The position numbers were made by a program, and so were the translations under genes. DNA of 39,417 nucleotides, taken from a virus. Positions 1,623 through 37,902 of this stretch are shown here, one piece after another. The notes under the pieces are model-generated. The model was not told the DNA's origin. It made no database searches and worked only from the letters and a program-made list of their open reading frames with translations. The stretch spans positions 1-39,417 of IMG/VR virus record IMGVR_UViG_3300032285_000935, one strand, 5' to 3'. The stretch's first letter is position 1. The number at the start of each line of letters is the position of its first letter.

Positions 1623-2962
1623 TAGATTGTACCCCAATCGGATATACTGACCCACGAAGCGGACGTTCCGTCTGTGGTAAGGAATTTGCCACTGTTACCA
1701 GTTTGTGTTGGTATGTAACTTGCAGCAGTTGTGGCGCTTGCTGCAGCGTTGGTAGCCGATGTGGCTGCATTGGTAGCAGAGGTTGCTGCTGCCGATGCTG
1801 AACTAGCCGCATTAGATGCGGATGTTGAAGCAGCAGATGCACTTGATGAGGCGTTGCTTGCATAAGTAGAAGCATTGGTTGCTGAGTTAGAAGCAGATGT
1901 TGCACTTGAACCAGCATTGGTTGCGTAAGTTGCTGCACTATCTGCAACGGTTGAGATGCTGATGTACGTAGCAGTTGTACTATCAGTATCAGTAATTGCA
2001 CCCATATCACGGACAAGACCAGAACCAGTCATACCAGTAATTGTGGTTATAGCATTAGTTGCAGTCGACGCAGAACCAGATGCTGAGGTTGCACTTGATG
2101 CTGCATTAGTTGCTGATGTGGAAGCATTACTTGCTGATGTAGATGCAGCCGATGCGCTGTTAGAAGCATTAGTAGCATATGTGCTAGCAGAAGTTGCGGA
2201 GTTGGCAGCATTGGTTGCAGAAGTAGCCGCATTGGTTGCGGAAGTGGCTGCATCAGAAGCCTTGGTAGTTGCAGTAGTCGCAGAACTGGAAGCACTTGTT
2301 GCATAACCTGAGGCTGTTGTTGAATAGCCAGAAGCAGACGTAGCAGAATTTGCGGCGTTTGTAGCACTTGTAGCAGCGTTAGTTGCGCTAGTAGCAGCAG
2401 CACTTGCACTAGAAGCGGCTGATGTTGCTGAGCCTAGGATTCCATCTACGTAAGTCTTGTTGGTAGCATCCCCACCAGCAGATGGTGTAGGTACGCTAGT
2501 AATTGTTGCACCAGAGATTGTACCATTTGTAATTGCTGGGGTAGTAATCGTTGGTGTTGTAAGAGTCTTGTTGGTCAAGGTCTTTGTATTTGTAGTTGTA
2601 ACTACATCTGCAATTGTAAGTCCGTGAGCAGTAGTAACATTTTCAATGTGTTGATTGGCTTCGCGATAATCGCGACCAATTGCCATGTGTCGAACAACTG
2701 CGCCAGCAGAGTGGACTTGGCCAGTAGAGCCATCAATGTTACGGGTAAAAGTTAGGGTATTGCCAGAGGTCGCGGTGACATCTACAATTTCTTCAAGGGC
2801 TGTATCTGGGTCAATGACAACCGTAAAGGTTTCTCCAGAGGAGATTGTAACTCCACCAAGAAGTGTTGTTGCAGATACGACTGTTGCAGACGTGGCAGTT
2901 GAGTTAAGACCTGCACTCAATGTTGTTTGCTGAGAACGGGAGGAGTATTTTCTTGTTGTCAT
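1622..2962 (-). CDS. long Ala/Ser/Thr-rich tail fibre protein (446 aa)
   Basis: Residues about 1-110 form a beta-rich head with a FTVVIDPDTALEEIVDV segment. Residues about 125-165 hold the Thr/Ile repeat NKTLTTPTITTPAI, common in phage fibres, followed by ATNKTYVDG. From about residue 175 to 420 the protein is almost entirely Ala, Ser, Thr and Asn in SATNAATSATNAA-type repeats. The C-terminus (GKFLTTDGTSASWVS) is a typical fibre-tip motif. The repeat region also opens long spurious frames on both strands. The stop overlaps the next start. It probably forms an extended trimeric shaft; trimerisation is family knowledge, not visible here. Confidence 0.85.
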   Translation of the reverse strand: MTTRKYSSRSQQTTLSAGLNSTATSATVVSATTLLGGVTISSGETFTVVIDPDTALEEIVDVTATSGNTLTFTRNIDGSTGQVHSAGAVVRHMAIGRDYREANQHIENVTTAHGLTIADVVTTTNTKTLTNKTLTTPTITTPAITNGTISGATITSVPTPSAGGDATNKTYVDGILGSATSAASSASAAATSATNAATSATNAANSATSASGYSTTASGYATSASSSATTATTKASDAATSATNAATSATNAANSATSASTYATNASNSASAASTSASNASTSATNAASSATSASGSASTATNAITTITGMTGSGLVRDMGAITDTDSTTATYISISTVADSAATYATNAGSSATSASNSATNASTYASNASSSASAASTSASNAASSASAAATSATNAATSATNAAASATTAASYIPTQTGNSGKFLTTDGTSASWVSISDWGTI

Positions 2963-2970
2963 TTATTTAC

Positions 2971-3891
2971 CTATCGGCGGGCGTAGTGGACACGGATTGG
3001 GTAATGCCGTTGTTGTTCAATAATTTCCTCATCAAGACGTTGTTTGTACATCTGGAAGAGTTGCTTGGTAATACCAGAGGTAGAACCATAAGGACGCTTT
3101 GAATCTGTTTCATCTGCTTGAGGTGAAGTCATTGAAGCACGTGCTGGGTCAATGAACTGCATCAAACGATAACAAGCACCAAGGACTACAACGTCCTTAG
3201 TTGATTCTTGGTATCCAAGGTCTGTTAGTGTCTCATCGTTAGATGCAAAATAATCTGGGTCTTTTGCATAAATGACTTTTACTCTACGCCCCGGAGTAAT
3301 ATAATCTCCGACAGTAATAGTCTGTGCATCAGCACCAAACACTGTTTCATCTGCAGCAACATCCCAATCCCAGTGACGAACCGGAATCCATTCTTTGGTT
3401 GGGCCAGTTGATTGCCAAGATAATGATAGGATATTACGGATTCCCAAACCGTTGAATCCATAAGTATTCTTTGGAACTTGATATGTAAACTCTGTACGAC
3501 CTACTGAATAAAGAACAGAGGACATAGCCTTGACTGTATCATTAATAGCACGTCGGATAGCAGAGCGAGGAAATGTAGGGCTTACTGTAACCTTATCTCC
3601 TGCAGAGTGTGTAGTAGCAGTTGTACCTTGATATCCACGACCATAAGGAGATATTGTAGCAGTATTAGCAATACGGTCATAAGAATCAACCCACAATAAT
3701 TCTTCGCCAATTTCGATTGTACCCTTACCGATGTTTTCAGTAGAACCCAATTGAAGGATTGTAGGCGAAGCAATAGTAGATGTGGTGCTGGTCACATTGG
3801 CTGTGAGGTGAGTAGCGCGGTCTTGTTGAAGTGTGTAACCTGAAAGGTTATAGGATACTTCGTCCATTAGGGTTGCTAAAGATGAACTCAT
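2971..3891 (-). CDS. putative head-tail connector / tail adaptor protein (306 aa)
   Basis: The protein starts with a helical segment (SLATLMDEVSYNLSGY). A beta-rich middle (TIEIGEELLWVDSYD, YGRGYQGTTATTHSAGDKVTV) resembles fibre-attached beta domains. A helical part (FPRSAIRRAINDTVKAM) follows, and the basic C-terminus contains QLFQMYKQRLDEEIIEQQRHYP. Helix-rich ends enclosing a beta insert, and position between virion genes and fibres, fit a connector or adaptor that links portal and tail. The assignment is by context and composition; no diagnostic motif was recognised. ATG 3891 overlaps the upstream stop at 3888 by four bases. Confidence 0.55.
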   Translation of the reverse strand: MSSSLATLMDEVSYNLSGYTLQQDRATHLTANVTSTTSTIASPTILQLGSTENIGKGTIEIGEELLWVDSYDRIANTATISPYGRGYQGTTATTHSAGDKVTVSPTFPRSAIRRAINDTVKAMSSVLYSVGRTEFTYQVPKNTYGFNGLGIRNILSLSWQSTGPTKEWIPVRHWDWDVAADETVFGADAQTITVGDYITPGRRVKVIYAKDPDYFASNDETLTDLGYQESTKDVVVLGACYRLMQFIDPARASMTSPQADETDSKRPYGSTSGITKQLFQMYKQRLDEEIIEQQRHYPIRVHYARR

Positions 3892-4175: not shown

Positions 4176-4466
4176 TTACTTAGATTTATTTCTCTTTGAA
4201 ATTGCTGCTGCTTTTTTCTTTGCATCTGCTTTAGATGATGCGCCCCACGCTTGTAGGGATAAAAGCAATCTTGTAGGTTCACCGTTAGGTTTTCTTTCAG
4301 GCCCCGGTGCATTACCCATACGAGCAAGGAATGATGCTCTACGAGGATTATCTCCTGACTTAACAGGAGGCCTTAGGGTTCCACCCTTATATGATGCTCT
4401 GCCTTTGGCATTCAATCCACCATTTGGATTCTTGCCTTCTTTACGTTGCCATGCTGGAGATGTCAT
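4176..4466 (-). CDS. basic conserved phage protein, DUF6321-like (96 aa)
   Basis: The motif series AWQRKEGKNPNGGLNAKGRASY, PPVKSGDNPRRASFLARMG, GPERKPNGEPTRL and LSLQAWGASSKADAKKKAA is one I associate with the DUF6321 family, found widely in aquatic phages; the family name is from memory. The protein is strongly basic (many Lys and Arg) with an Ala/Lys-rich C-terminal tail, suggesting nucleic-acid contact. Its position, between a glycosyltransferase and the connector region, puts it in the virion operon. The biochemical function of the family is not known to me. Confidence 0.75.
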   Translation of the reverse strand: MTSPAWQRKEGKNPNGGLNAKGRASYKGGTLRPPVKSGDNPRRASFLARMGNAPGPERKPNGEPTRLLLSLQAWGASSKADAKKKAAAISKRNKSK

Positions 4467-4473
4467 ATGCTAC

Positions 4474-5196
4474 CTACCTTGGTGTAATAATTTTGCTCTT
4501 AGGTTTAGCCTGTACCTTAGGCTTCTCTAAGAATGCTTTGTAGTAATGTTCGTCAAATGAGAATCGCTTCATGTGTGGGACTAGGGCTGAGGTGTCGCAC
4601 CATAGTGGTACTTCTGCCTTGCCAGCCAACATATAGAAGTAAACATCCTCACCGATAAAGGTATTATCAATTCCTGCCTCAGCAAAGAATGGAGTACCTT
4701 CTGGAAGAATCTCTTTAATCTTTTCTACTGCACTGCGGTGCATTAGGACAAATCCAAACCCTGCTGCATCAACCTTCATAAAACTATTCTCAGGTAGTGG
4801 GTGAACTGCATTGATTGTAAATGCACCTTCACGCTCTACAAAATTGTAGATGGTTGGAAGTGGAACCATAAGTGGTTCCTCTGGAGTTGTGGTTGTAAAG
4901 TAAACTCCAGTCAAGAGTGGCTTAGTTAAAGCATCTCTCTTATTCCAAAGTTTTAAAAATGTTTCTGGGCTAATAACTACGTCCGAGTCTACCCACAAAA
5001 GCCAATCAGACTTATTGTTATCATACCAATAGTTGATGACCTTGTTACGCTGTCTTGCTATTTGATTTCCATTGCTACGCAATGTAGTCTCAAATTTTAC
5101 TCCTGAACGCAAGAGGACATCGGTAACGCCTTGCATAAAGCGACCATCTACGTTACCGTTGTCACACCAAGCGATTGCTACTGTTTCTTGTTCCAT
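4474..5196 (-). CDS. GT-A fold glycosyltransferase-like protein (240 aa)
   Basis: The N-terminus (TVAIAWCDNGNVDGRFMQGVTDVLL) reads as the nucleotide-sugar-binding strand/helix of GT-A enzymes. The sequence LLWVDSDVVISPETF near residues 66-80 carries the DxD motif used to hold the metal and sugar nucleotide. A conserved acidic GEDVYF follows around residues 183-188, with CDTSALVPHMKRF beyond. The length suits small phage-borne GT2-like enzymes. The start follows an AGGGGACA ribosome-binding site. It could glycosylate virion proteins or a host surface polymer. Embedding in the structural operon favours the virion, but the acceptor cannot be read from sequence. Confidence 0.8.
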   Translation of the reverse strand: MEQETVAIAWCDNGNVDGRFMQGVTDVLLRSGVKFETTLRSNGNQIARQRNKVINYWYDNNKSDWLLWVDSDVVISPETFLKLWNKRDALTKPLLTGVYFTTTTPEEPLMVPLPTIYNFVEREGAFTINAVHPLPENSFMKVDAAGFGFVLMHRSAVEKIKEILPEGTPFFAEAGIDNTFIGEDVYFYMLAGKAEVPLWCDTSALVPHMKRFSFDEHYYKAFLEKPKVQAKPKSKIITPR

Positions 5197-5210
5197 TGTC
5201 CCCTGCTATC

Positions 5211-5492
5211 TTAGTAGTTGTACTTGCTTAACTTGTTTGGGATAACCGAGTTCTTGATAGGTCCCGGTGAGTTTTGCGCCTTGTACATTGCGTTCTGGTA
5301 GCGTTGGTCTCCGTACATACGACGAACACCTTCTACGAATGCGGTTGCAGTTGTATCTCCAGCACCACCAGCAGCAGAAGCGCCAGCGACAGAATTGAGA
5401 GCGCCTGTCATTCCCATTTTCTTGATTGTATCAATTGTGGATTGAGGAACTTTAACCTTCATATCCCAAGATGACTTGTCAATCTTTGCCAT
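5211..5492 (-). CDS. small virion-module protein, unknown (93 aa)
   Basis: No family recognised. The N-terminal third is basic (MAKIDKSSWDMKVKVPQSTIDTIKK). A Gly/Ala-rich stretch follows (SVAGASAAGGAG), then a helical, Tyr/Arg-rich region (VEGVRRMYGDQRYQNAMY). Its ATG directly abuts the stop of the lysine-rich protein upstream (TAA-ATG). It belongs to a run of four small basic proteins between the capsid and fibre genes. Possible roles include capsid decoration, DNA condensation or head completion, but nothing in the sequence decides. Confidence 0.6.
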   Translation of the reverse strand: MAKIDKSSWDMKVKVPQSTIDTIKKMGMTGALNSVAGASAAGGAGDTTATAFVEGVRRMYGDQRYQNAMYKAQNSPGPIKNSVIPNKLSKYNY

Positions 5493-5672
5493 TTACTTGC
5501 CCTTCTTTGTCACGCCAGAGATTTTCTTTAGACGTGGATTTGCCTTAATTGCCTTTGCTGATGCCTTGCGGGCACCTGCTGCCAAGATTGCTCCAGCACG
5601 TTCTTTAGAAATGCCTTGCTTCTTAGCAATACCTGCAGCGACTTTCTTAAAACCGGGATGTGCTGTTTTCAA
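5493..5672 (-). CDS. lysine/alanine-rich small protein, TTG start (59 aa)
   Basis: This gene is short. It reads from TTG 5672, which overlaps the TGA of the upstream gene (TTGA), to TAA 5493-5495. The product begins MKTAHPGFKKVAAGIAKKQG and continues with KASAKAIKANPRLKKIS. It has about 15 Lys, three Arg and one acidic residue, with helices rich in Ala. The coupled junctions on both sides and the lack of any other frame in the gap support it. The composition is that of a histone-tail-like DNA-binding peptide; function unknown. Confidence 0.7.
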   Translation of the reverse strand: MKTAHPGFKKVAAGIAKKQGISKERAGAILAAGARKASAKAIKANPRLKKISGVTKKGK

Positions 5673-6025
5673 TTGGTGTACCGTCTTCCTTGAAGGATTG
5701 CTCCACCAAGTTGTCCAAGTTGCTTATCTGCTTTTCTACCTGCAGCATCAGCCTTAGCATTTAATTCAGCGCGCTTCTCTGGTGGATATGATTTTGCATC
5801 CATTTGAGCCATAGTAGTATCAGCATATGCCTTTGCGACATCTTTGATTTCTTTGCCGACATTACCAACATATGAAGTCACTGTGTTTATTGCACGGTTA
5901 ATTGGATTAACCTGCTTATTGGTAATGCCCGGAGTCGTACGAGGATTATCCAAATTAGCGCGATTCCAAAGTGGGTCTTTATCTGCGTTGAATCTTTTTT
6001 CAACTGGTTTGTTGTTTGTAGCCAT
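5669..6025 (-). CDS. small virion-module protein, unknown (118 aa)
   Basis: No family recognised. The N-terminus is polar and basic (NKPVEKRFNADKDPLWNRANLDNPRTTPG). A middle segment, INRAINTVTSYVGNVGKEIKDVAKAYADTTMAQMD, is predicted helical. A Lys/Ala-rich stretch (KRAELNAKADAAGRKADKQLGQLGG) precedes the end. ATG 6025 follows the TAA of the 54-aa gene directly. It is one of four adjacent small basic genes. The DPLWNRANLDNPRTTPG part may be an unstructured arm. Virion association is inferred from operon position only. Confidence 0.65.
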   Translation of the reverse strand: MATNNKPVEKRFNADKDPLWNRANLDNPRTTPGITNKQVNPINRAINTVTSYVGNVGKEIKDVAKAYADTTMAQMDAKSYPPEKRAELNAKADAAGRKADKQLGQLGGAILQGRRYTN

Positions 6026-6190
6026 TTACTTCTTCTTTCCCATTTTCTTTACAGAAACTTTCTTAGCAGACTTGACAACATCTTTGATACCTTGCTTCTT
6101 TTCAAAAGCAGCCATCTTCTTGCCTTCGCCTTTTTCGTGAGCCTTCATCGCACCCTTAGATGCGTACATTTCTACTTTGCCTTTAGCCAT
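6026..6190 (-). CDS. very basic 54-aa protein
   Basis: The frame runs from ATG 6190 to TAA 6026-6028, and the next ATG follows immediately at 6025. The product (MAKGKVEMYASKGAMKAHEKG at its start, ending KKVSVKKMGKKK) has about 17 Lys and no Arg or Cys. ATG 6190 lies just after the upstream zinc-finger-like gene. It is too small and repetitive in composition to assign. Its high charge suggests it binds DNA or an acidic protein such as the scaffold. Confidence 0.65.
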   Translation of the reverse strand: MAKGKVEMYASKGAMKAHEKGEGKKMAAFEKKQGIKDVVKSAKKVSVKKMGKKK

Positions 6191-6191
6191 T

Positions 6192-6650
6192 TTATACTCC
6201 TAGTTCTTTCATTACTCCTGCGACTTTTTTGTCGATTTGGTGTGCTGGTGCCATCTTCTCAGAGTTATAGGCTTTGCCCATATTCTCAGAAGCGGTTCTT
6301 GCTGCTTCTATGTGTGCCCTTGTAGTTCCTCCGGGTTGAATACCTTCGGCTCTTGCCTTCTTGTATTCGTTTAACTCAGAGGTCCACTTCTTGTCTGGAA
6401 TGTCCCGAGTGGCATCTCCAGCATTCATTTGTAATGTCTTGACCTTGCAGCCAAAGCAATCACAATTTTCCTTACAGGGTTCCTTGACTATGGTATATTC
6501 ACCAAAGCCCGGCCATATAGTTGGTGATGTCTCATCACACTTTAGGCAACCGTATTCTATGGTGTATTCGTTTACATTACCATCTTCAAGTCTGTATTCC
6601 CATTTGGTTTCTTTACCAACATGGCCATTTACTTTGCAGTCATATTCCAT
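6192..6650 (-). CDS. Cys-rich, zinc-ribbon-like protein (152 aa)
   Basis: The N-terminal half has one Cys in MEYDCKVNGH, a CxxC-type pair (YGCLKCDE, residues about 34-37), then CKENCDCFGCK around residues 58-67. This could hold one or two zinc ions. The C-terminal half is helical and charged (WTSELNEYKKARAEG, ARTASENMGKAYNSEK). The start is preceded by AGGGGACA. It lies in the virion operon just beyond a 89-aa gene next to the capsid gene. I do not recognise a named family; a structural or assembly role is possible. Confidence 0.65.
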   Translation of the reverse strand: MEYDCKVNGHVGKETKWEYRLEDGNVNEYTIEYGCLKCDETSPTIWPGFGEYTIVKEPCKENCDCFGCKVKTLQMNAGDATRDIPDKKWTSELNEYKKARAEGIQPGGTTRAHIEAARTASENMGKAYNSEKMAPAHQIDKKVAGVMKELGV

Positions 6651-6658
6651 AGTGTCCC

Positions 6659-6928
6659 CTATGCTGTTTTAAAGTTAGCCTCTGTTACTCCGATATTTGC
6701 AGCAATGATTGCTGATTTGGTTGCACTATCTACAATGTAGTCACTACCACCAATGTAATATTCTTGAGCAGAGTTTACATCTGATTGCATTGAGTAACGT
6801 TCAATTTGATAAACGCCACCACGCTTTGCCACACTCACACCACGCTTTAGTCGGTAGAAGGTAAATAGACGTGATGCGCCTGATGGACCTTCTTCAACCG
6901 TAGGTGTTGAGAAAATATAATTAGTCAT
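6659..6928 (-). CDS. small protein downstream of the capsid gene, unknown (89 aa)
   Basis: The start has a strong AAGGAG ribosome-binding site. The product is beta-rich at its start (YIFSTPTVEEGPSGASRLFTFYRL), with the basic segment LKRGVSVAKRGGVYQIERYSM, then a helical end. The position immediately after the major capsid gene is often taken by head decoration or head completion proteins, so that is a reasonable guess. The sequence itself does not prove it. A stable hairpin (6951-6980) separates it from the capsid gene, so it may be expressed at a lower level. Confidence 0.6.
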   Translation of the reverse strand: MTNYIFSTPTVEEGPSGASRLFTFYRLKRGVSVAKRGGVYQIERYSMQSDVNSAQEYYIGGSDYIVDSATKSAIIAANIGVTEANFKTA

Positions 6929-8464: not shown

Positions 8465-8589
8465 AGCAACTATCCACCCTTCTATTCGTTTGAGTCGCAA
8501 ACCTCAGATTGCACTAGGGGAAGTGCGTCTGGCTTTTGCTACCGGTCTATTACTCTACTCAGTGCCGGTGTATCCGAGTAGGATTCTAT

Positions 8590-10788: not shown

Positions 10789-13700
10789 TTAGTTGCTGCC
10801 ACGTGATACCTCACTTAATGAATCATTGTTCATACGCATTTGAATAAGTTCTTGCAATTTAGGGTCCCACTGTCCGATGTACTTTTCAACTATGGCAGGG
10901 TATTGGCGAAGGATATAACTCTTAACCTTACTTCCAGTAGGGTATGAATTGTAAACCTTTGCCATCTCTTCACGGGCTTGGATGAAATCCTTGGCATCTT
11001 GCCAGAACTTGCTTTGACCGTGTTTAGCCATAAACTTATCATCGTGTGTCAACATCCAGATTCCACGACCCCAGATAAACGATTTATTGCTTGTCTGTTG
11101 TGGCATATAATCTGAGTTGTACCAGTCAGGGTTTTGAGCAGAGAGAACCTTATCAGCATAGGCAGCCATCTCTTCGGAGGCTCCCTTAATCTTTGAGAAG
11201 TTCTCAATAGTAAATCCAGCAGCCTTGATATTAGGCAAGTCTAGTATTGCTTGCTTGTGAGCAAAGTATAGAGTCCAAGTCTTTTGATTCTGCAGAAGTC
11301 TTTCCTTCTCAGCAGGACTTGGGATAATCGTATTCATTGGTTGCCCATTAGACAATTTAGCATTAGGGTCATTGAATAGATTATATACTGTATTGTTGAA
11401 CTTTGCATCACGAGGAATATCATAAGTCAATAGTTCAAGAATCTTAGGGTCCGTCTTATCAAGACTATATAAGCCAGAAACTAAATCAGGGAAATCATGT
11501 GTTAAACGATTGTATGAATCCCACGTAGGTGGCTTGTAGAACTTTTGAATTTTGTTGCTCATTGCAGCACGTTCTACAGGGAAGTCTGCTCCAAGATGAC
11601 TAATCATCTCTTCGCCAGCCTTCTTCTTGGCCTCATCATAAGGCAAGCCTTGAGAAGTAAACTTATTGAACAAAGTCTTGTAGTAATCAACGATTGTTTG
11701 GTAAGGGCGTGTATCTACCTTTACTGGTACACCATAAGGTGATGCAAACTCGAAGAATGCTTTTACATGGAATAGGTGTGTAGTCTCATCAATGACCTGC
11801 TTTTCAGTAGGCATTGGATTCTTAACTGGGTCCATATCATGCAGAGTAGCGTGGTAATCCCATACTGATAGTAGAGATTCTTGCCAGTCTTTACGACCCT
11901 TTGGACCACGTAGGTAACTGAAACCATCACGTGCCCAACCCGGAGTCAATGACTCTAGAACATTTGTTTGAGTTCCAAATGGGAATATGATGTCGTAGTA
12001 TTGACCCATCATGTTCTTCATTGTATCTTCGGCATTTGGATAGTTATGCTGAACTGCACCAACAACCAATGTTGTATATACAGATGGGCTAGGATAGTTA
12101 AGCAAGAAACCAAGAGACTTAGCGTTCAAGCGAACTGGCTTGTTATCCAAGATAGTCCAGTTACCAATCTTTAGATTGATATCCTCTGTTCCCGGTACAA
12201 TTAAATACTGTGCTTGCATTGGGTCTTTGACGTGATTACCATATTCATCTACACCAAAGTTACCGAATGCTCCATCATAGTAGTGCAAGAATCCAAGAGT
12301 ACGATATGGGTTCTGCGCAGCAAGACGAGCATAACGATAGAAAGCACTAAAGGTAGCAGTTGGGAACGAAGCAACTAAACGTGCCGCTCTCATCATACGT
12401 AGTTCACGACGAACTGTATAGAATGTCTTTTCAGTATCTTTTACAACTTCACGTGCTGCTGCTTGGCGAAGCGCATTAAGACGTTCAATGCCTTTTGCGC
12501 CATCAAAACTTACACCTTGTTTGGCAAGGATTTCTGCTTTCTTTGCTACTGTATCTGCAAAACGAGCATCTGCATAAGCCCAACGAATTGGATTTTCAGG
12601 CTTTGCTAGTTGTTGGAATATGCGAGATATACCAGAGTTTAAGCCAGCCTCGATGCGACGAGTTCCCTTTAGGAACCCACCTTCGATGTCGCTTTGTGCG
12701 CTCATCATATCGTAGTTGATGTCTGTAGGTTGTAGAGCAGTTAGTTGCTCTTCATGACGAGATAGCATCTTCTTAAGTTCAAGGTCATTTACTTCGCGTT
12801 CCAAAAGCAATGCTTTAACATCTTCATTTGGAATATAGCGGTTTACTAATGAAACCTTTTCCTTGACATATTCTGCTAGGTTAACTGGACCATTGTTGCC
12901 CCATTGCTCTAGGTAAGCAGGGTTTTGGTCTAGCCATTTAACCAATTCTTTTTCGCTCTTGTTAGCAAAGATTTGCTGGAATAGAGGGTCATTGCGCCAT
13001 AGGCGATTGAATACGTGTGCAAGTTCTGGGAAGTAATCTGTATTGTAAATCTCGATGGTTCCATTTGGCCTGCGCTTTTGAAAGATTGCTTGGCGTGAGC
13101 CAACATTCAAATCTCCAGCATAGGTTTTAGCAATAGTCTTAGCATTGCTTAGTTCATCACGCATTGCTGCGCCATATAGGTTCTCATCAAATAGGCTAGG
13201 AACACTTACATACTGACCATTTACCATACGGTATGTAGATTCTTTTCCATAGTAACGCTTCTTAAAAGCATTACTCTTGCCAAATACATCGGCTTGTTGC
13301 TCGTGTACTGAACCAAGGTTCTTTACTTGAAAGTTAATATCCTCATATGATGCTGCTAGTCTATCATTGAGTTCTGCTAATGTGGTGCCATCTGGGCCTA
13401 CTGAAACAAGTTCTTTCTTTAGGGCATTGATATTCTTCTTAGCATCTGCAATTTGCTTCTTCATTGAACGACGAAGCGAAGGCACATTTTGCTCGATATA
13501 AGCAATTCTATTTTCTAGAGAAGCAACACTAGGAACTGTGGTTGGTTTCATACCCAATGGACGCACTGCGTCATTAAGTTCTGCTTCCATAGCCTCTACG
13601 CGCTTATCAGCATCCTTTAAAAGGTTTTTGATATAAGCACCATTTTGCTTGCGGGTTACTGGACTAAGAATTTTGCCTTGGAACATAACATCCCAGTTGG

Positions 13701-21084: not shown

Positions 21085-21370
21085 AAAAGTTCTCGGGGAG
21101 ATTGTTTTATTTCTTTCGTTATTCGCTCAATTCATAGCCCTATTTATTCTTAATCGGTCTTAATTGTTTTTTATTTAATGGCGAGATTAAATTCTTGATG
21201 GTTGATAGTCTGCCCACCCTTTCCCCCCTTGCGTTAATTAGTTGAAAGTTAAATTAGATAGTTGAAAGTTCAACTAAATTTCCCTAGCCACTAGCTTCTT
21301 TTTATAAATTCCAAAGGTGCCGGAATCGGGCAGAATCGACCCGCCCCGCGCCCCGCGTATCCCCGCATGG

Positions 21371-21387
21371 TGTCCGATAATCGGACG
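21371..21387 (+). repeat. 17-bp palindrome, copy 1
   Basis: TGTCCGATAATCGGACG: outer pair T·G instead of T-A. It lies in the leader of the plus-strand operon, about 120 bases before the first gene. All nine copies have the unpaired centre as A on the plus strand. Confidence 0.9.
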
Positions 21388-21506
21388 CCTAAACCCCCTA
21401 AATGAGCGTAAAAAAAAATAAAATAAAAGGGTGCGAAAGTTGAAAGAATTGCCAAGATATGAGAGGGTTCTCTTAGTGGCAAACCCGCCACCAAAGACCC
21501 AAAGAA

Positions 21507-22187
21507 ATGGACGTTAAAAAAATGGCTACAAAGACAGCGAAAGTAACAGCACCAAAGGCACCAAAGACAACTGCACCAAAGGCTCCAAAGATTAAAATCG
21601 AAAACGCATTAGACAATCAACTGGTGAAAGAATATTCTGCACTGGCGCAAGAATCTCGCCAAGATGAAATTCTATTTATTGCGTCCACCGTCGGACGTCT
21701 AAATGCGGGCACCCTTTCGGTTCGTATCGGCAAGGCGTCAATCAAAGAGGCAGAAAAGTCGGGCAAAGCACCGACTATCCGCGCCTCTCATATTGAACAC
21801 TTTAAGACCGCACTGCAAATTATAAACCTAGAAGGTGCGGATGATAAGAGCCTCGCCGAAATTCTAAAATTAGCGACCCGCGCAGACACCGCCTACGGCG
21901 TCGAAAAGGCAAAGGTCGAAATCGCAAAGGCTAAAACCTACGCAGACGCAGACACCGCGACCCCTACCATTGCCGAAAGCGCAAGCGCAAAGCCAAAGGC
22001 GGGACGCAAGACCAAAGCCAAAGTACAAGCACCAAAAACCCTTGAGGAGAAAATTCTCGCTATGGTTCAATTACTAGCCACCGAAAAGAATCTCAAGGAC
22101 GCCAAGACCAGCGACCTAAAATCACTAAAGGCAGTACTAGGCGCACTAAGCCAAGTAGCCCGAAATAGCGAGGCAAAGACCGCCTAA
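21507..22187 (+). CDS. Lys/Ala/Pro-rich basic protein, first gene of the plus-strand operon (226 aa)
   Basis: The start may be ATG 21507 or the in-frame ATG 21522 (MATKTAKVTAP); neither has a strong ribosome-binding site. The N-terminal 35 residues are histone-H1-like (KVTAPKAPKTTAPKAPK). The middle (about 36-140) is a helical globular part (DNQLVKEYSALAQESRQDEILFIAS, LVRIG-like turns, ILKLATRADTAYG). A second Lys/Ala/Pro-rich linker (about 165-180) precedes a helical end. Arms around a globular core suggest a DNA-binding or nucleoid-type protein. It is expressed as its own unit, since a strong terminator follows. No HTH was recognised. Confidence 0.75.
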   Translation: MDVKKMATKTAKVTAPKAPKTTAPKAPKIKIENALDNQLVKEYSALAQESRQDEILFIASTVGRLNAGTLSVRIGKASIKEAEKSGKAPTIRASHIEHFKTALQIINLEGADDKSLAEILKLATRADTAYGVEKAKVEIAKAKTYADADTATPTIAESASAKPKAGRKTKAKVQAPKTLEEKILAMVQLLATEKNLKDAKTSDLKSLKAVLGALSQVARNSEAKTA

Positions 22188-22201
22188 GCAATAGAAAGGA
22201 T

Positions 22202-22231
22202 AGCCCCGCCGAAAGGCGGGGTTATTTTTTT
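22202..22231 (+). terminator. intrinsic terminator after the first plus-strand gene
   Basis: A perfect 7-bp GC stem CCCCGCC-GAAA-GGCGGGG with a GNRA-type tetraloop is followed by TTATTTTTTT. It sits 14 bases after the stop of the 226-aa gene. It separates that gene from the rest of the plus-strand operon, which has its own promoters downstream. Confidence 0.93.
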
Positions 22232-22364
22232 GCCCTAAAAAATTTTGAAAAAATTTTCCAACACAAACCAACACAAACTTTTTGCGATAGGCGCCGGACG
22301 ATTTGGCGTTGCGAAATTCCGCTATCAGTGCAGAAGTTGAGGGCTAAACGGGGCAGATGGGTGT

Positions 22365-22393
22365 TTGACTTAAAGGCTAGGCTAGGATACCTT
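22365..22393 (+). promoter_or_regulatory. promoter-like pair P1
   Basis: TTGACT (22365-22370) and TACCTT (22388-22393) are 17 bases apart. The -10 is a poor consensus match. The -35 and its flank (TTGACTTAAAG) recur exactly in P2 114 bases downstream, which supports function. Palindrome copy 2 begins 66 bases after the -35 start. Confidence 0.5.
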
Positions 22394-22430
22394 TAGAGAG
22401 TGAAAGTCTGCTTAATAACGAATTCCCAGC

Positions 22431-22447
22431 CGTCCGATAATCGGACG
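22431..22447 (+). repeat. 17-bp palindrome, copy 2
   Basis: CGTCCGATAATCGGACG: the outer pair is C-G, a compensatory change relative to the T-A of the common form. It follows P1 and has no gene directly after it. Confidence 0.9.
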
Positions 22448-22478
22448 CTGAGAGTGCGGAAAGTGGATAGCACAAGGC

Positions 22479-22507
22479 TTGACTTAAAGATGGGGTTAAT
22501 ATATCCT
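22479..22507 (+). promoter_or_regulatory. promoter-like pair P2
   Basis: TTGACT (22479-22484) and TATCCT (22502-22507), spacer 17. It reads towards the 61-aa gene at 22585. The -35, spacer length and distance to the next palindrome are the same as in P1. Confidence 0.58.
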
Positions 22508-22544
22508 TATCTTATGGTTGAGGCAGGGATGTCCAAAACCTAGC

Positions 22545-22561
22545 CGTCCGATAATCGGACA
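22545..22561 (+). repeat. 17-bp palindrome, copy 3
   Basis: CGTCCGATAATCGGACA, outer pair C·A mismatched. It ends 23 bases before ATG 22585, just ahead of that gene's AAGGAG site. Confidence 0.9.
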
Positions 22562-22584
22562 GTTACTAACAAGGAGAAAAGAAA

Positions 22585-22770
22585 ATGAACGAAGTTGATA
22601 CAGACTTAGATTTTCTAAGTGATGATGAACTAGCAGAGATTCTTGCGATTGAATCTGACCTCGGAGTAGATATATCCCTAGATGAAATTGAGTATGAAGT
22701 AGCGGGTTACGCTATGGGTTATGACGTTGATGATGAAGATGAGGACGAGTACTCAGATTGGGCTGAGTAA
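22585..22770 (+). CDS. acidic small protein, unknown (61 aa)
   Basis: ATG 22585 follows AAGGAGAAAAGAAA. About a third of residues are Asp or Glu, including a C-terminal acidic run (YDVDDEDEDEYSDW). The only hydrophobic part is a short helix LAEILAIESDLGV. Small acidic early phage proteins often mimic DNA or bind host enzymes such as polymerase or nucleases. That is a generic possibility, not shown here. The gene is first after promoter P2 and is followed by a tRNA-like element. Confidence 0.72.
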   Translation: MNEVDTDLDFLSDDELAEILAIESDLGVDISLDEIEYEVAGYAMGYDVDDEDEDEYSDWAE

Positions 22771-22781
22771 TACCCTCGGTA

Positions 22782-22829
22782 GCCCGCGCTGGTGGCGTGG
22801 TTCGTAGGTTCAATTCCTACGGCGGGCAC
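22782..22829 (+). ncRNA. truncated tRNA-like element lacking an anticodon arm
   Basis: The 3' part is canonical. A T-arm with stem GTAGG/CCTAC and loop TTCAATT (22805-22821) is followed directly by a 7-base acceptor strand GGCGGGC and a discriminator A. The 5' strand GCCCGC (about 22783-22788) pairs with six of the seven acceptor bases. Only about 14 bases lie between, enough for at most a small D-like stem (CGC/GCG), so no anticodon arm exists. The element is about 47 bases long against a normal 72-90. It may be a degraded tRNA, an attachment-site remnant or a tRNA mimic. Confidence 0.6.
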
Positions 22830-22831
22830 TG

Positions 22832-22848
22832 TGTCCGATAATCGGACA
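22832..22848 (+). repeat. 17-bp palindrome, copy 4
   Basis: The consensus TGTCCGATAATCGGACA. It directly follows the tRNA-like element and ends 22 bases before ATG 22871. Confidence 0.92.
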
Positions 22849-22870
22849 CTATTAGACAGAAGGAGAAAAT

Positions 22871-23008
22871 ATGTACCTATCACTCGGAGATAGTTTCGCT
22901 ATAACCCTAGCGTTAATCTCATTAGTCGCAGTGCTAACCCTAGCCTTCCGTAGGATTGCAGTGTTAGAGAAGCAAGCAATTAAGTATCGTAGGGAGTTAC
23001 GTAAATGA
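22871..23008 (+). CDS. small single-span membrane protein (45 aa)
   Basis: AAGGAGAAAAT precedes ATG 22871. Residues about 8-27 (SFAITLALISLVAVLTLAFR) form one transmembrane helix. A basic tail follows (RRIAVLEKQAIKYRRELRK). The topology is short outside, long basic cytoplasmic end. Its stop overlaps the next start (ATGA), so it is coupled to the 70-aa gene. Function is unknown; small membrane proteins in such regions may affect superinfection or lysis timing. Confidence 0.7.
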   Translation: MYLSLGDSFAITLALISLVAVLTLAFRRIAVLEKQAIKYRRELRK

Positions 23009-23217
23009 TTGTTGAAAGTAAAAATGAATTGCTAATGCTACTCATTGGATTAGAGTGTGCTTCGGAGATGATTCTGCAACACGCTAGAGCAGAGGAGTGG
23101 CATGAGCGCACCTTCGTCAGTCTATTTAACAAAGTGGCTGACGAATATAATCAGATGGTCGAGGATGAAGAAAGTCTAATCGTTGAACTAATATCAGAAG
23201 GGAAATTCTATGATTAA
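23005..23217 (+). CDS. small helical protein, unknown (70 aa)
   Basis: ATG 23005 overlaps the membrane gene's stop. The product is entirely helical and acidic. It starts MIVESKNELLMLLIGLECAS and runs on through EMILQHARAEEWHERTF and LFNKVADEYNQMVEDEE. The end overlaps the following gene by eight bases. No family was recognised. Confidence 0.65.
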   Translation: MIVESKNELLMLLIGLECASEMILQHARAEEWHERTFVSLFNKVADEYNQMVEDEESLIVELISEGKFYD

Positions 23218-23380
23218 ACTAGAGTTATCTATCAGGGAGATTGAGGTCATCCGTCAGGCCCTACGCTCCCAAGAGGACGCGCATAAGCGCAATGGCTTTA
23301 AGGGTTTAGTCGCTGAGGACTCAGCCCTTAGAGCCAAGATTAGCAACGCGCTACTTGACTATTTGCGCGTTGAAGTGTAA
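23210..23380 (+). CDS. small helical protein, unknown (56 aa)
   Basis: The frame runs from ATG 23210, inside the end of the 70-aa gene (GGGAAATTCT upstream), to TAA 23378-23380. The product is MIKLELSIREIEVIRQALRS followed by a charged linker and a second helix ending ISNALLDYLRVEV. Two amphipathic helices joined by a polar loop suggest a small dimeric or partner-binding protein. The tight overlap with the upstream frame supports translation. No named family recognised. Confidence 0.62.
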   Translation: MIKLELSIREIEVIRQALRSQEDAHKRNGFKGLVAEDSALRAKISNALLDYLRVEV

Positions 23381-23410
23381 GGTTATACCTAGAAAGTGAA
23401 AGACCCTAGA

Positions 23411-23427
23411 TGTCCGAGAATCGGACA
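23411..23427 (+). repeat. 17-bp palindrome, copy 5
   Basis: TGTCCGAGAATCGGACA. The only change (T to G) lies in the three-base centre, leaving both 7-base arms intact. It ends 25 bases before ATG 23453. Confidence 0.9.
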
Positions 23428-23452
23428 CTAGATTGAGCGAAAGGATAGGTTA

Positions 23453-35872: not shown

Positions 35873-37902
35873 TATACCGTCCTGAGTTGTAGTTGGATGA
35901 TGCCACCAAAGCCAGTGAATCGCTTATCAGGTGGAGTCATGCGAGTGAATACAATTTGCTCAATTACAACCGGGAAAGATTCGTTTGTGTTGAAATCTTG
36001 CCAAGTCACAATATCACCGTTTTCTTCTGTTTGTTCTAGAGAGCGGAGACGAGACAAAGCACTGCCTTCGTATCCAACAACTGCATTATATCTATCTGTT
36101 TCAACGTCATAGCAATATACAGGAATCTGGATAATGCGGTGACGAGCAGTAGCAATAAGGGCTTTGATTTGGTATCCCTTAAATATAGGTCCCTGTGTGG
36201 TATCAGTTGTATCACGGTACAACTCAAACTTATATGATAGGAATTCAGTCGCAGCAGATGGAGGTTCTGTAGTTACCTCAACATTGTTGATTGTAGAATT
36301 ATATGTGATGTGGTCATACTGAGCATCATCTTTATCTACAGTCAAAAGAATCATAGAGCCGTAGGTGTAATCACCACGAGCAATCATACGCTCAAAGTGC
36401 TTGGCCTCTAGAGTGTTAAAACGAATTCTACCTGTTTGTAGGTATCCTTCTGTTGCCTTAACTGAGGCATCCTCTACATAGACATAGCCAACTTCTGTGC
36501 CAACTTTATCGGTACAGAAAGCAACTCTATCTGTATTGCCTATGAATGCTACACCAGTAGTAGAATGACCGGCAACCTCTGCCACGTAAACGTCATTAGA
36601 CCAACCAAATCGAAGTGATTCAACGATTGCACCGATGTCAATACGAGTAGTTCCGGGCTCGCCAGCAACTCCAGTAGCACACCAAATGTAATGATTGTAT
36701 CCAGCAAAACCATAGCAAGGTTGAGTAGATTCGATAGTTAATGGGCCATAGGTAAGGGAACCGTCTTGGTCACTAACTAGGGCTAGACGCACACCCTTGC
36801 TGGTTCCAATAGCCATAAGGCCAAGGTAATAGTAAATGCTATATACAACTTCACTAGCAGGCAACTCTGCTGCGGTAAGAGCAGATGTAAGAGTTGGCAT
36901 ACTGCCAGCAGATGTTAGTGTAAACTTTTGAATACTTGATTTGATACCATTATAGCCAGCAACATAGATGGCTGGTCCAGAGGATGTAATGCTTGTATAT
37001 ACATATGCAGAGTTTGGATGAGTGTATACTGGGCTAGGCAAAGCCGAAGCAGTTGTGGCAAACTCATATACAGAATTGTTTACGCAAAGAACGATACGTT
37101 CCTTTACATAATCCATAACTGCATTTGCAGCAACTACACCATTAGCAGTGAACATAAGGGTTTCATCTGCCGTACTGGTAGCATCTCCATTGAGAGGTTT
37201 TTTATAAACGTGTATTTTATTTGCTCCACCAGCAACAGCATTAGTCACCCAATAAGCATAGGTTCCATCATCACACGCAGCATATACTGGCTCTGCAGTT
37301 CCCGTGTTGTAATCAACAAAGTGGACTACTGAACCATCAGATTTAATCTTATCTAAGTCCCAACCATCATGGAGTAAAACTCCATCGTAGGTTACGCTAC
37401 TTGTTGTCCATTGGATAGAACGCAATTGTTGGCGAGGTCGTTTATTGGTGGCAGCAACAGTTGTAACATTGTGACCTTGATTCATTTGGCGAAGCAGGGT
37501 TACTTGTCCCTTATCCCACACATTTACGTTCTTGCTATCTGCATAGCGGTAGGTTACTGTGTCTCCTGCTGCGGGGTCATAGAACTTAATGCCTGAACCA
37601 TGATGAAAGGATGATTGAGAACGAATCCACCAACCAGTAAGTGATTGTTCACCGGGTTCTGTTTGATTATCGAACTGGTCTTTCTTAAACGGTGCAGTCT
37701 GACGAACGTATGGACGTTGGTCATTAATTGCATAAATAAAAGGTTGACCACCAAGGGCTAAGTCGTAAGCAACATCTGTATTCTGCCATAGGGCAGATGA
37801 GGATGTAATACCTACATCTGTATATCCTCGAGCAATTGGCAGACCGTCTCCTGCTAAAGCGTAGACTCCACTGGAGCCTTCGGTAATATCACGACCTGCC
37901 AT
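35872..37902 (-). CDS. large tail protein, possible beta-propeller tail nozzle (676 aa)
   Basis: The whole protein is beta-rich with repeated strands of YAAC/WVTN/AVAGG type (e.g. DGTYAYWVTNAVAGGANKIHVYKK, YKFELYRDTTDTTQG). There are several GxYxY-style blades around residues 210-450, as expected for a propeller. AAGGAG precedes ATG 37902. Its size and its place between lysis genes and fibre genes suit a tail tube/nozzle protein such as the T7 gp12 type, but no conserved motif proves it. It could also be a large fibre-attachment protein. Confidence 0.6.
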   Translation of the reverse strand: MAGRDITEGSSGVYALAGDGLPIARGYTDVGITSSSALWQNTDVAYDLALGGQPFIYAINDQRPYVRQTAPFKKDQFDNQTEPGEQSLTGWWIRSQSSFHHGSGIKFYDPAAGDTVTYRYADSKNVNVWDKGQVTLLRQMNQGHNVTTVAATNKRPRQQLRSIQWTTSSVTYDGVLLHDGWDLDKIKSDGSVVHFVDYNTGTAEPVYAACDDGTYAYWVTNAVAGGANKIHVYKKPLNGDATSTADETLMFTANGVVAANAVMDYVKERIVLCVNNSVYEFATTASALPSPVYTHPNSAYVYTSITSSGPAIYVAGYNGIKSSIQKFTLTSAGSMPTLTSALTAAELPASEVVYSIYYYLGLMAIGTSKGVRLALVSDQDGSLTYGPLTIESTQPCYGFAGYNHYIWCATGVAGEPGTTRIDIGAIVESLRFGWSNDVYVAEVAGHSTTGVAFIGNTDRVAFCTDKVGTEVGYVYVEDASVKATEGYLQTGRIRFNTLEAKHFERMIARGDYTYGSMILLTVDKDDAQYDHITYNSTINNVEVTTEPPSAATEFLSYKFELYRDTTDTTQGPIFKGYQIKALIATARHRIIQIPVYCYDVETDRYNAVVGYEGSALSRLRSLEQTEENGDIVTWQDFNTNESFPVVIEQIVFTRMTPPDKRFTGFGGIIQLQLRTV

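Follow-up and report, generated by a model that had tools for sequence, protein, structure and literature searches.

Dispersed palindromes of a phage early operon switch in concert with an adjacent candidate regulator gene

The window, a 39,417-base IMG/VR virus record considered here over its whole length, carries nine copies of the palindrome GTCCGATAATCGGAC in a rightward early operon. Among related phages, the palindromes switch in concert with the gene at 21507-22187 (plus strand), and one residue of its product covaries with one palindrome base; the sites, their restriction to the early operon, and both of these associations are direct observations. We propose, with a probability of about 0.62, that the palindromes are operators of a phage-encoded dimeric regulator, the product of this gene, which would silence the early operon in an immunity-like manner. 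We are confident that regulator and palindromes are a cognate pair and moderately confident that the regulator acts as a repressor; what we infer comprises binding, dimerization, repression rather than activation, roadblocking, and immunity.

The gene content of the window (WhiB, an amidoligase, a class-II glutamine amidotransferase or GATase, a phage sigma factor, a DnaB-like helicase, and a terminase) points to an actinophage. Its terminase is 80% identical to that of 'Caudovirales sp. ct2KA10' and about 46% identical to those of Streptomyces phages. The DNA of 21300-25700 had no match in the phage collection, two genome scans for host or prophage relatives found none, and tblastn returned no relative of the first early gene product (61 aa). 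The amidoligase and class-II GATase genes are adjacent (23453-25497) and lie between candidate operators; they are also neighbors in Marvin-type mycobacteriophages.

The palindrome set of the window

Seven of the nine copies are exact and two carry one mismatch, all with a central A on the plus strand. They are confined to 21372-28148, a 7-kb stretch forming the rightward early operon, and the only site elsewhere is a three-mismatch one at 37661. When up to three mismatches are allowed on both strands, 19 matches are counted, a number reached by 0 of 100 dinucleotide shuffles (shuffle mean 0.57). Copy 1 (21372-21386, exact) lies 5' of the regulator gene, and relatives likewise have a palindrome before theirs. 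Copy 2 (22432-22446) stands 3' of one promoter-like stretch (P1) and 5' of another (P2), while copy 3 (22546-22560) ends 24 bases 5' of the start codon of gene 22585-22770. Copy 4 (22833-22847) is 23 bases 5' of gene 22871, and copy 5 (23412-23426), with its one mismatch changing the central TAA to GAA, precedes the amidoligase gene at 23453. Copy 6 (24298-24312, exact) falls within the amidoligase coding sequence, where it reads SDNRT, so that an operator-like site seems to be retained at the price of five codons. Past the amidotransferase stop codon, copy 7 (25501-25515) abuts the next ribosome-binding site; copy 8 (27589-27603) is at the 3' end of the ORF 27437-27625, before a start at 27622; and copy 9 (28134-28148, one mismatch) lies where the early operon ends, within the 3'-terminal part of the convergent sigma-factor gene. 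All nine are given on the plus strand.

A terminator-like stem read by eye, CCCCGCC GAAA GGCGGGG with a T run, lies 3' of the regulator gene (22203-22229, plus strand). Adjoining copy 4 on its 5' side, positions 22782-22828 could form an RNA element resembling a T-arm and acceptor stem, with neither D nor anticodon arm; many relatives have an equivalent, and single-sequence folds of these often give both helices with the sequence changed. ARAGORN found no tRNA in the window, this element included, and no Rfam family reached its gathering score there. In viral contigs, the exact palindrome occurs as a single match in 41 of 42 stretches, which is about chance by a rough estimate. The exception, L025, has five copies of the same palindrome core at 4397-6673 (four of them exact 15-mers), in both central-base orientations and with no recognisable regulator. 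In open-licence papers we found no description of the palindrome family.

A preliminary description of this DNA had drawn attention to two promoter-palindrome modules of equal geometry, and this pair is a small part of the larger nine-site system. Direct reading bears out the geometry. TTGACTTAAAG begins at 22365 and again at 22479, 114 bases apart; a 17-base spacer and a -10-like hexamer follow in both (TACCTT at 22388-22393, TATCCT at 22502-22507); and GTCCGATAATCGGAC comes at 22432 and 22546, each 67 bases past the start of the -35 (66 to the preceding C). P1 (22365-22393, TTGACT, 17 bases, TACCTT) is promoter-like by consensus match only, and P2 (22479-22507, TTGACT, 17 bases, TATCCT) is promoter-like as well, both on the plus strand; TTGAC-type promoters are enriched before palindromes in relatives. 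Across the 114-base repeat, the promoter ends are 71% identical over 31 nt and the palindrome ends 95% identical over 22 nt. On the plus strand of the window TTGACTTAAAG occurs only at 22365 and 22479, and seven of the nine palindrome copies are without such a promoter.

The description had also taken the equal spacing as a sign of selection on the exact promoter-palindrome distance, and this part has to be given up: in relatives the distance from -35 to palindrome ranges from 49 to 85 bases, mostly 55-68, and such variability is what the description itself had regarded as evidence against its claim. Because relatives range so widely, the matching 67 and 67 of the window is not a conserved distance; close palindrome-palindrome spacings in relatives run from 70 to 123. 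Its other suggestion, an old duplication, is plausible as a tandem event, and in G001-G004 three palindromes are each separated from the next by a promoter-like stretch.

The candidate regulator and its covariation with the palindromes

The candidate palindrome-binding regulator (21507-22187, plus strand) has 221 aa from its probable start at 21522 and 226 aa from 21507. By BLAST, it is 29-44% identical to counterparts in 9 of 26 relatives and undetected in the rest, against 74-92% identity for the terminase in every one of them; even so, wherever the region is complete, a syntenic protein of ~200-230 aa is present. A profile search found regulators in 125 of 226 sequences, and 64 are distinct, of which the profile recognized 63 and position alone identified the last (L328). 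The regulator gave no match worth reporting in Pfam, PHROG, NCBIfam, or PDB sequences, and two members searched against 50,697 phage records gave no protein match at E up to 1. AlphaFold2 predicts the window regulator to be all helical with a mean pLDDT of 80; across most of the central domain of two all-helical models the pLDDT exceeds 90. The N terminus is basic, rich in K, A, and P, and of low confidence in the model, with seven basic residues and one acidic residue among the first 30.

For comparison, the best 80 of 137 GATase relatives were fetched, and further loci were added later. Most relatives carry a repeated palindrome of their own, and 18 half-site classes occur among 63 regulators. 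There are two main geometries, 15-mers with seven-base arms around one central base and 14-mers of the form N5-YTAR-N5; one group (L112, L119, and L122) has a 17-mer. In 25 relatives with a recognized motif, a count that leaves out a 26th (G025, whose 17-mer was recognized later), the sites are concentrated in the homologous early operon, with one stray two-mismatch site in G004. The layout recurs: one palindrome precedes the regulator gene, two or three lie close together around the early promoters, and further sites follow before or between later genes. Among 489 palindromes in 59 loci, 279 (57%) are followed by a ribosome-binding site and start, against 31% of random positions.

Regulator and palindromes are also present or absent together. 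All 63 distinct regulators found by HMM adjoin a repeated palindrome, with at least six copies in 59 of them, four in L104 (left out of the statistics), and five to six of the 17-mer in L112, L119, and L122. Conversely, the regulator and any palindrome repeated at least three times are both missing from 14 of 14 distant loci for which the region was available, and ct2KA10 (OX376641) keeps the backbone with regulator and palindromes both absent. In the distant phage L328, a different protein occupies the regulator's place (2953-3621), and the locus has its own palindrome, CTTTCTAATAGAAAG, eight times. The L328 protein has a weak HTH match (PF01381, E 0.2), and a profile comparison of A1 with it gave no match; the arrangement suggests a nonhomologous replacement within the same kind of system.

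Regulator identity predicts whether two phages share a motif with an AUC of 0.949 for 62 proteins, the pairs not being independent. The corresponding values for eight other genes are 0.820 (GATase), 0.793 (g27753), 0.788 (sigma), 0.749 (amidoligase), 0.748 (terminase), 0.692 (g26695), 0.663 (WhiB), and 0.530 (phosphoesterase). No two regulators with different motifs are more than 67% identical, while other genes reach 92-100% identity with different motifs. At least 18 motif changes are needed on a GATase tree of 35 rows. The clearest instance is the pair L126 and L268, whose DNA is 90.7% identical over 4,128 columns: all three palindrome slots in this block are switched from GTCATAT-type to GCTGTAT-type with their flanks conserved, the regulators are 43% identical, and the GATases are 92% identical. 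To judge from such sequence pairs, related phages look as though they have swapped regulator and palindromes together, as if evolving private control codes.

Within the regulator, the covariation centers on residue 92, a Glu in the window (codon 21795-21797, plus strand) and the fifth residue of a predicted helix, 88-101. This residue follows base 3 of the 15-mer: Glu or Asp occurs with C, Gln (one His) with A, and Pro or Ser with T. The adjusted mutual information of 0.94 is the first of 1,140 tests, the next being 0.65, in a set of 21 representatives of 33 proteins from which L112, L119, L104, and L328 were left out. By z score, residue 92 ranks second to residue 116; we preferred adjusted mutual information, which is less inflated for near-invariant columns. 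On the independent GATase tree, all supported independent pairs are concordant (6/6 for C with an acid, 4/4 for A with Gln or His, 4/4 for T with Pro or Ser), with sign-test p values of 0.031, 0.125, and 0.125, four-pair tests being unable to reach 0.05.

The pattern of acid with C, Gln with A, and Pro with CTATAT was fixed before ten further regulators were known (G002, G007, L222, L260, L266, L268, L295, L296, L298, and L299), and 10/10 fit it, although several closely resemble known members and G002 and G007 had palindromes that were seen beforehand. His (L053, with A) was grouped with Gln, and Ser (L069, with T) with Pro, only after being seen. The code holds for the 15-mers and the 17-mer and has no simple carry-over to the 14-mers, where TCCGY and TTCGG both go with Pro. 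GCCGTAT with Asp (L108) and GCTGTAT with Pro (L268) form a near-minimal pair, and other codes include Glu with GTCATAT (L126) and Gln with GTATGAT (L054).

How the sites may act

We propose that the regulator binds the site before its own gene and so would limit its own synthesis, and that it also binds the two sites flanking P2 and others in the short intervals that separate early genes. The sites ~30 bases past the presumed P1 and P2 starts, and ~30 bases 5' of the P2 -35, could block initiation or escape, either alone or via looping over about 114 bases, and those in gene gaps could roadblock elongating polymerase. A TTGAC-type promoter lies 40-90 bases 5' of the palindrome in 104 of 489 cases (21%) in 59 loci, compared with 2.5% of random positions, and this association makes a promoter-proximal block by a bound protein a good candidate. 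Since specificity differs between lineages, the action of the regulator might, like that of an immunity repressor, be limited to co-infecting phages that share its specificity. A classical lysogenic state is unsupported, because integrase, resolvase, and ParA families (PF00589, PF00239, and PF13614) were found in 0 of 27 records, some of them possibly incomplete.

It is also conceivable, though we think it unlikely, that the cognate pair is right and the regulator is instead an activator, an architectural protein, or an early-to-late timing factor. The window sites flank promoters and fill gene gaps while leaving -10 and -35 uncovered, and the basic K/A/P-rich N terminus and the absence of integrase and ParA from the 27 records would suit such a role. 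However, the internal sites, far from recognized promoters and just before start codons, resemble polymerase-blocking stoperators more, and specificity switches as numerous as those on the 35-row tree (at least 18) fit immunity-type selection.

The preferred reading of the palindromes as DNA operators draws on their symmetry, which extends to the axis in the 524 sites counted. In 15-mers, position 6 is complementary in 240/241 sites and position 7 in 229/241, and a hairpin would be unable to pair position 7 across a single base; in 14-mers, positions 6 and 7 are complementary in 177/283 and 236/283, and the inner positions are YTAR, with both C-A and T-G tolerated. Among the five outer pairs, the mismatches are 18 G-U and 22 A-C. 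A dyad that reaches the axis, together with this mismatch pattern, favors a dimeric protein that recognizes double-stranded DNA. On the coding strand, A occupies the center of 225 of 266 15-mer sites and is the majority base there in 12/12 classes, an excess larger than the bias in coding-strand composition (A 0.316, T 0.244), and a symmetric dimer leaves this central-A bias without explanation.

An RNA hairpin in the early mRNA, serving as an attenuator, stability, or antitermination element, would account for the central-base bias naturally, and the nine window copies do share one orientation relative to transcription. We nevertheless judge this very improbable: the symmetry includes positions 6-7, the would-be loop; wobble is not preferred (outer-arm G-U 18 versus A-C 22); within any one genome the copies have nearly the same sequence, more than structure by itself would demand; and some copies sit 5' of promoters. 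The preliminary description had offered an attenuation or roadblock device, and its second half survives as a good candidate in light of the promoter association, whereas attenuation by an RNA hairpin is disfavored by a dyad that reaches unpairable positions.

A similarly poor prospect is that another protein (the phage sigma factor, WhiB, or a host regulator) binds the palindromes and that the neighboring gene covaries by linkage only. Sigma and WhiB are present in the same phages and the regulator gene is near several sites, yet among pairs at least 85% identical the motif is shared in 25/25 for the regulator, in just 45/93 for sigma and 30/47 for WhiB, and in 51/92 for GATase. The GATase gene, which lies between palindromes, is unlinked to the switch (92% identity in L126 and L268), and a host factor is unlikely to vary among phage lineages in this way. 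As palindrome partners, sigma and WhiB were rejected on the AUC values and the pair comparison.

Neither AlphaFold2 model can be securely matched to a known DNA-binding fold. The top three fold matches of model 1 are KorB (1r71_D, Z 4.6), ParB (6s6h_B, Z 4.4), and 6t1f_C (Z 3.8), the KorB match being weak (rmsd 4.6, 96 aligned); KorB and ParB matches are not listed for model 2, of the 14-mer class. At E up to 0.001, Foldseek gave none for model 1 (PDB, BFVD) or model 2 (PDB), an absence that does not argue for a new fold. The ParB/KorB family is likewise absent from the Pfam matches listed (25 of 28) for 48 members at E up to 1. Least probable of all are parS-like partition or plasmid-maintenance sites bound by a ParB/KorB-like protein, for which the model 1 matches to KorB and ParB DNA-binding domains and the dispersed operators of KorB itself (PMC11790492) might be cited, and against which stand the lack of ParA (PF13614) in 27 records, the lack of ParB/KorB among the Pfam families listed for 48 members and of such a match for model 2, and the placement of the palindromes at gene boundaries and not in one cluster.

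Some of the phages may add a further input to the switch. GAACN4GTTC, a form that we take to be the actinobacterial LexA box, occurs within 500 bases 5' of the regulator gene in 15 of 62 regulator loci. There are 20 boxes in the 30,885 nt upstream, compared with 18 in the other 816 kb of these loci, a density ~29 times higher; examples at 11438, 11498, and 11591 in G001 and at 8531 in G003 are close to or interleaved with the regulator's palindrome. The upstream boxes are found only in 15-mer-class phages, with none 5' of the window regulator, and they hint at an SOS input through which damage to host DNA may act on the switch of those phages.

Taken as a whole, the sequences tentatively suggest a larger and more doubtful picture: a new DNA-binding protein family acting as an immunity-like system in phages with neither an integration nor a partition module, with a private code written about nine times per early operon, a compact recognition helix that varies the specificity and has one residue reading one base pair (acid-C, Gln-A, Pro/Ser-T), diversification driven by competition in co-infection and not by lysogeny, and a host LexA input in some lineages. 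The natural regulator-operator series (18 half-site classes, 63 regulators) contains near-minimal pairs, some on ~90% identical backbones, and makes it testable how a regulator and its network of some nine sites come to change specificity jointly. It would also bring a further protein family into the set of regulators known from uncultured actinophages.

Comparison with known systems

The lambdoid CI repressors use dyad operators about a central base pair, and regulator and operators co-vary into immunity groups. The present system shares the dyad sites about a central base pair and the joint variation of regulator and sites; unlike lambdoid operators, the sites are spread through an operon instead of being clustered at two promoters, and the protein family is unrelated as far as searched. 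The start-associated sequences of Cluster K mycobacteriophages are reportedly a repeated motif just 5' of start codons, whereas the sites here are palindromes, occur 5' of promoters and within genes too, and change together with the regulator gene. KorB of plasmid RK2, a ParB-family protein, is a global regulator with dispersed OB operators near and far from promoters (PMC11790492). Dispersed sites are common to both, and one of our models weakly resembles the KorB DNA-binding domain, but the all-helical 221-aa model is without an N-terminal CTP-binding domain.

The closest functional parallel appears to be the stoperator system of Cluster A phages. The Cluster A repressor (L5 gp71 or TipsytheTRex Rep) has many short dispersed sites, mostly in gene gaps and mainly in one orientation; these are similar within a phage and differ between phages, and repressors prefer their own sites (PMC6550527, PMC9283540). 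The Cluster A sites are 13-14 bp long, have no dyad symmetry, and are bound by a monomer with two DNA-binding domains. Here too near-identical sites are dispersed in gene gaps. Cluster A phages have an integrase or parABS, and none was found here in 27 records; orientation is seen at the center of the site alone (A in 225/266). The sites described here are, unlike stoperators, palindromes of 14, 15, or 17 bp with a dyad that extends to the axis, and this dyad symmetry is a defining point of difference between the two systems.
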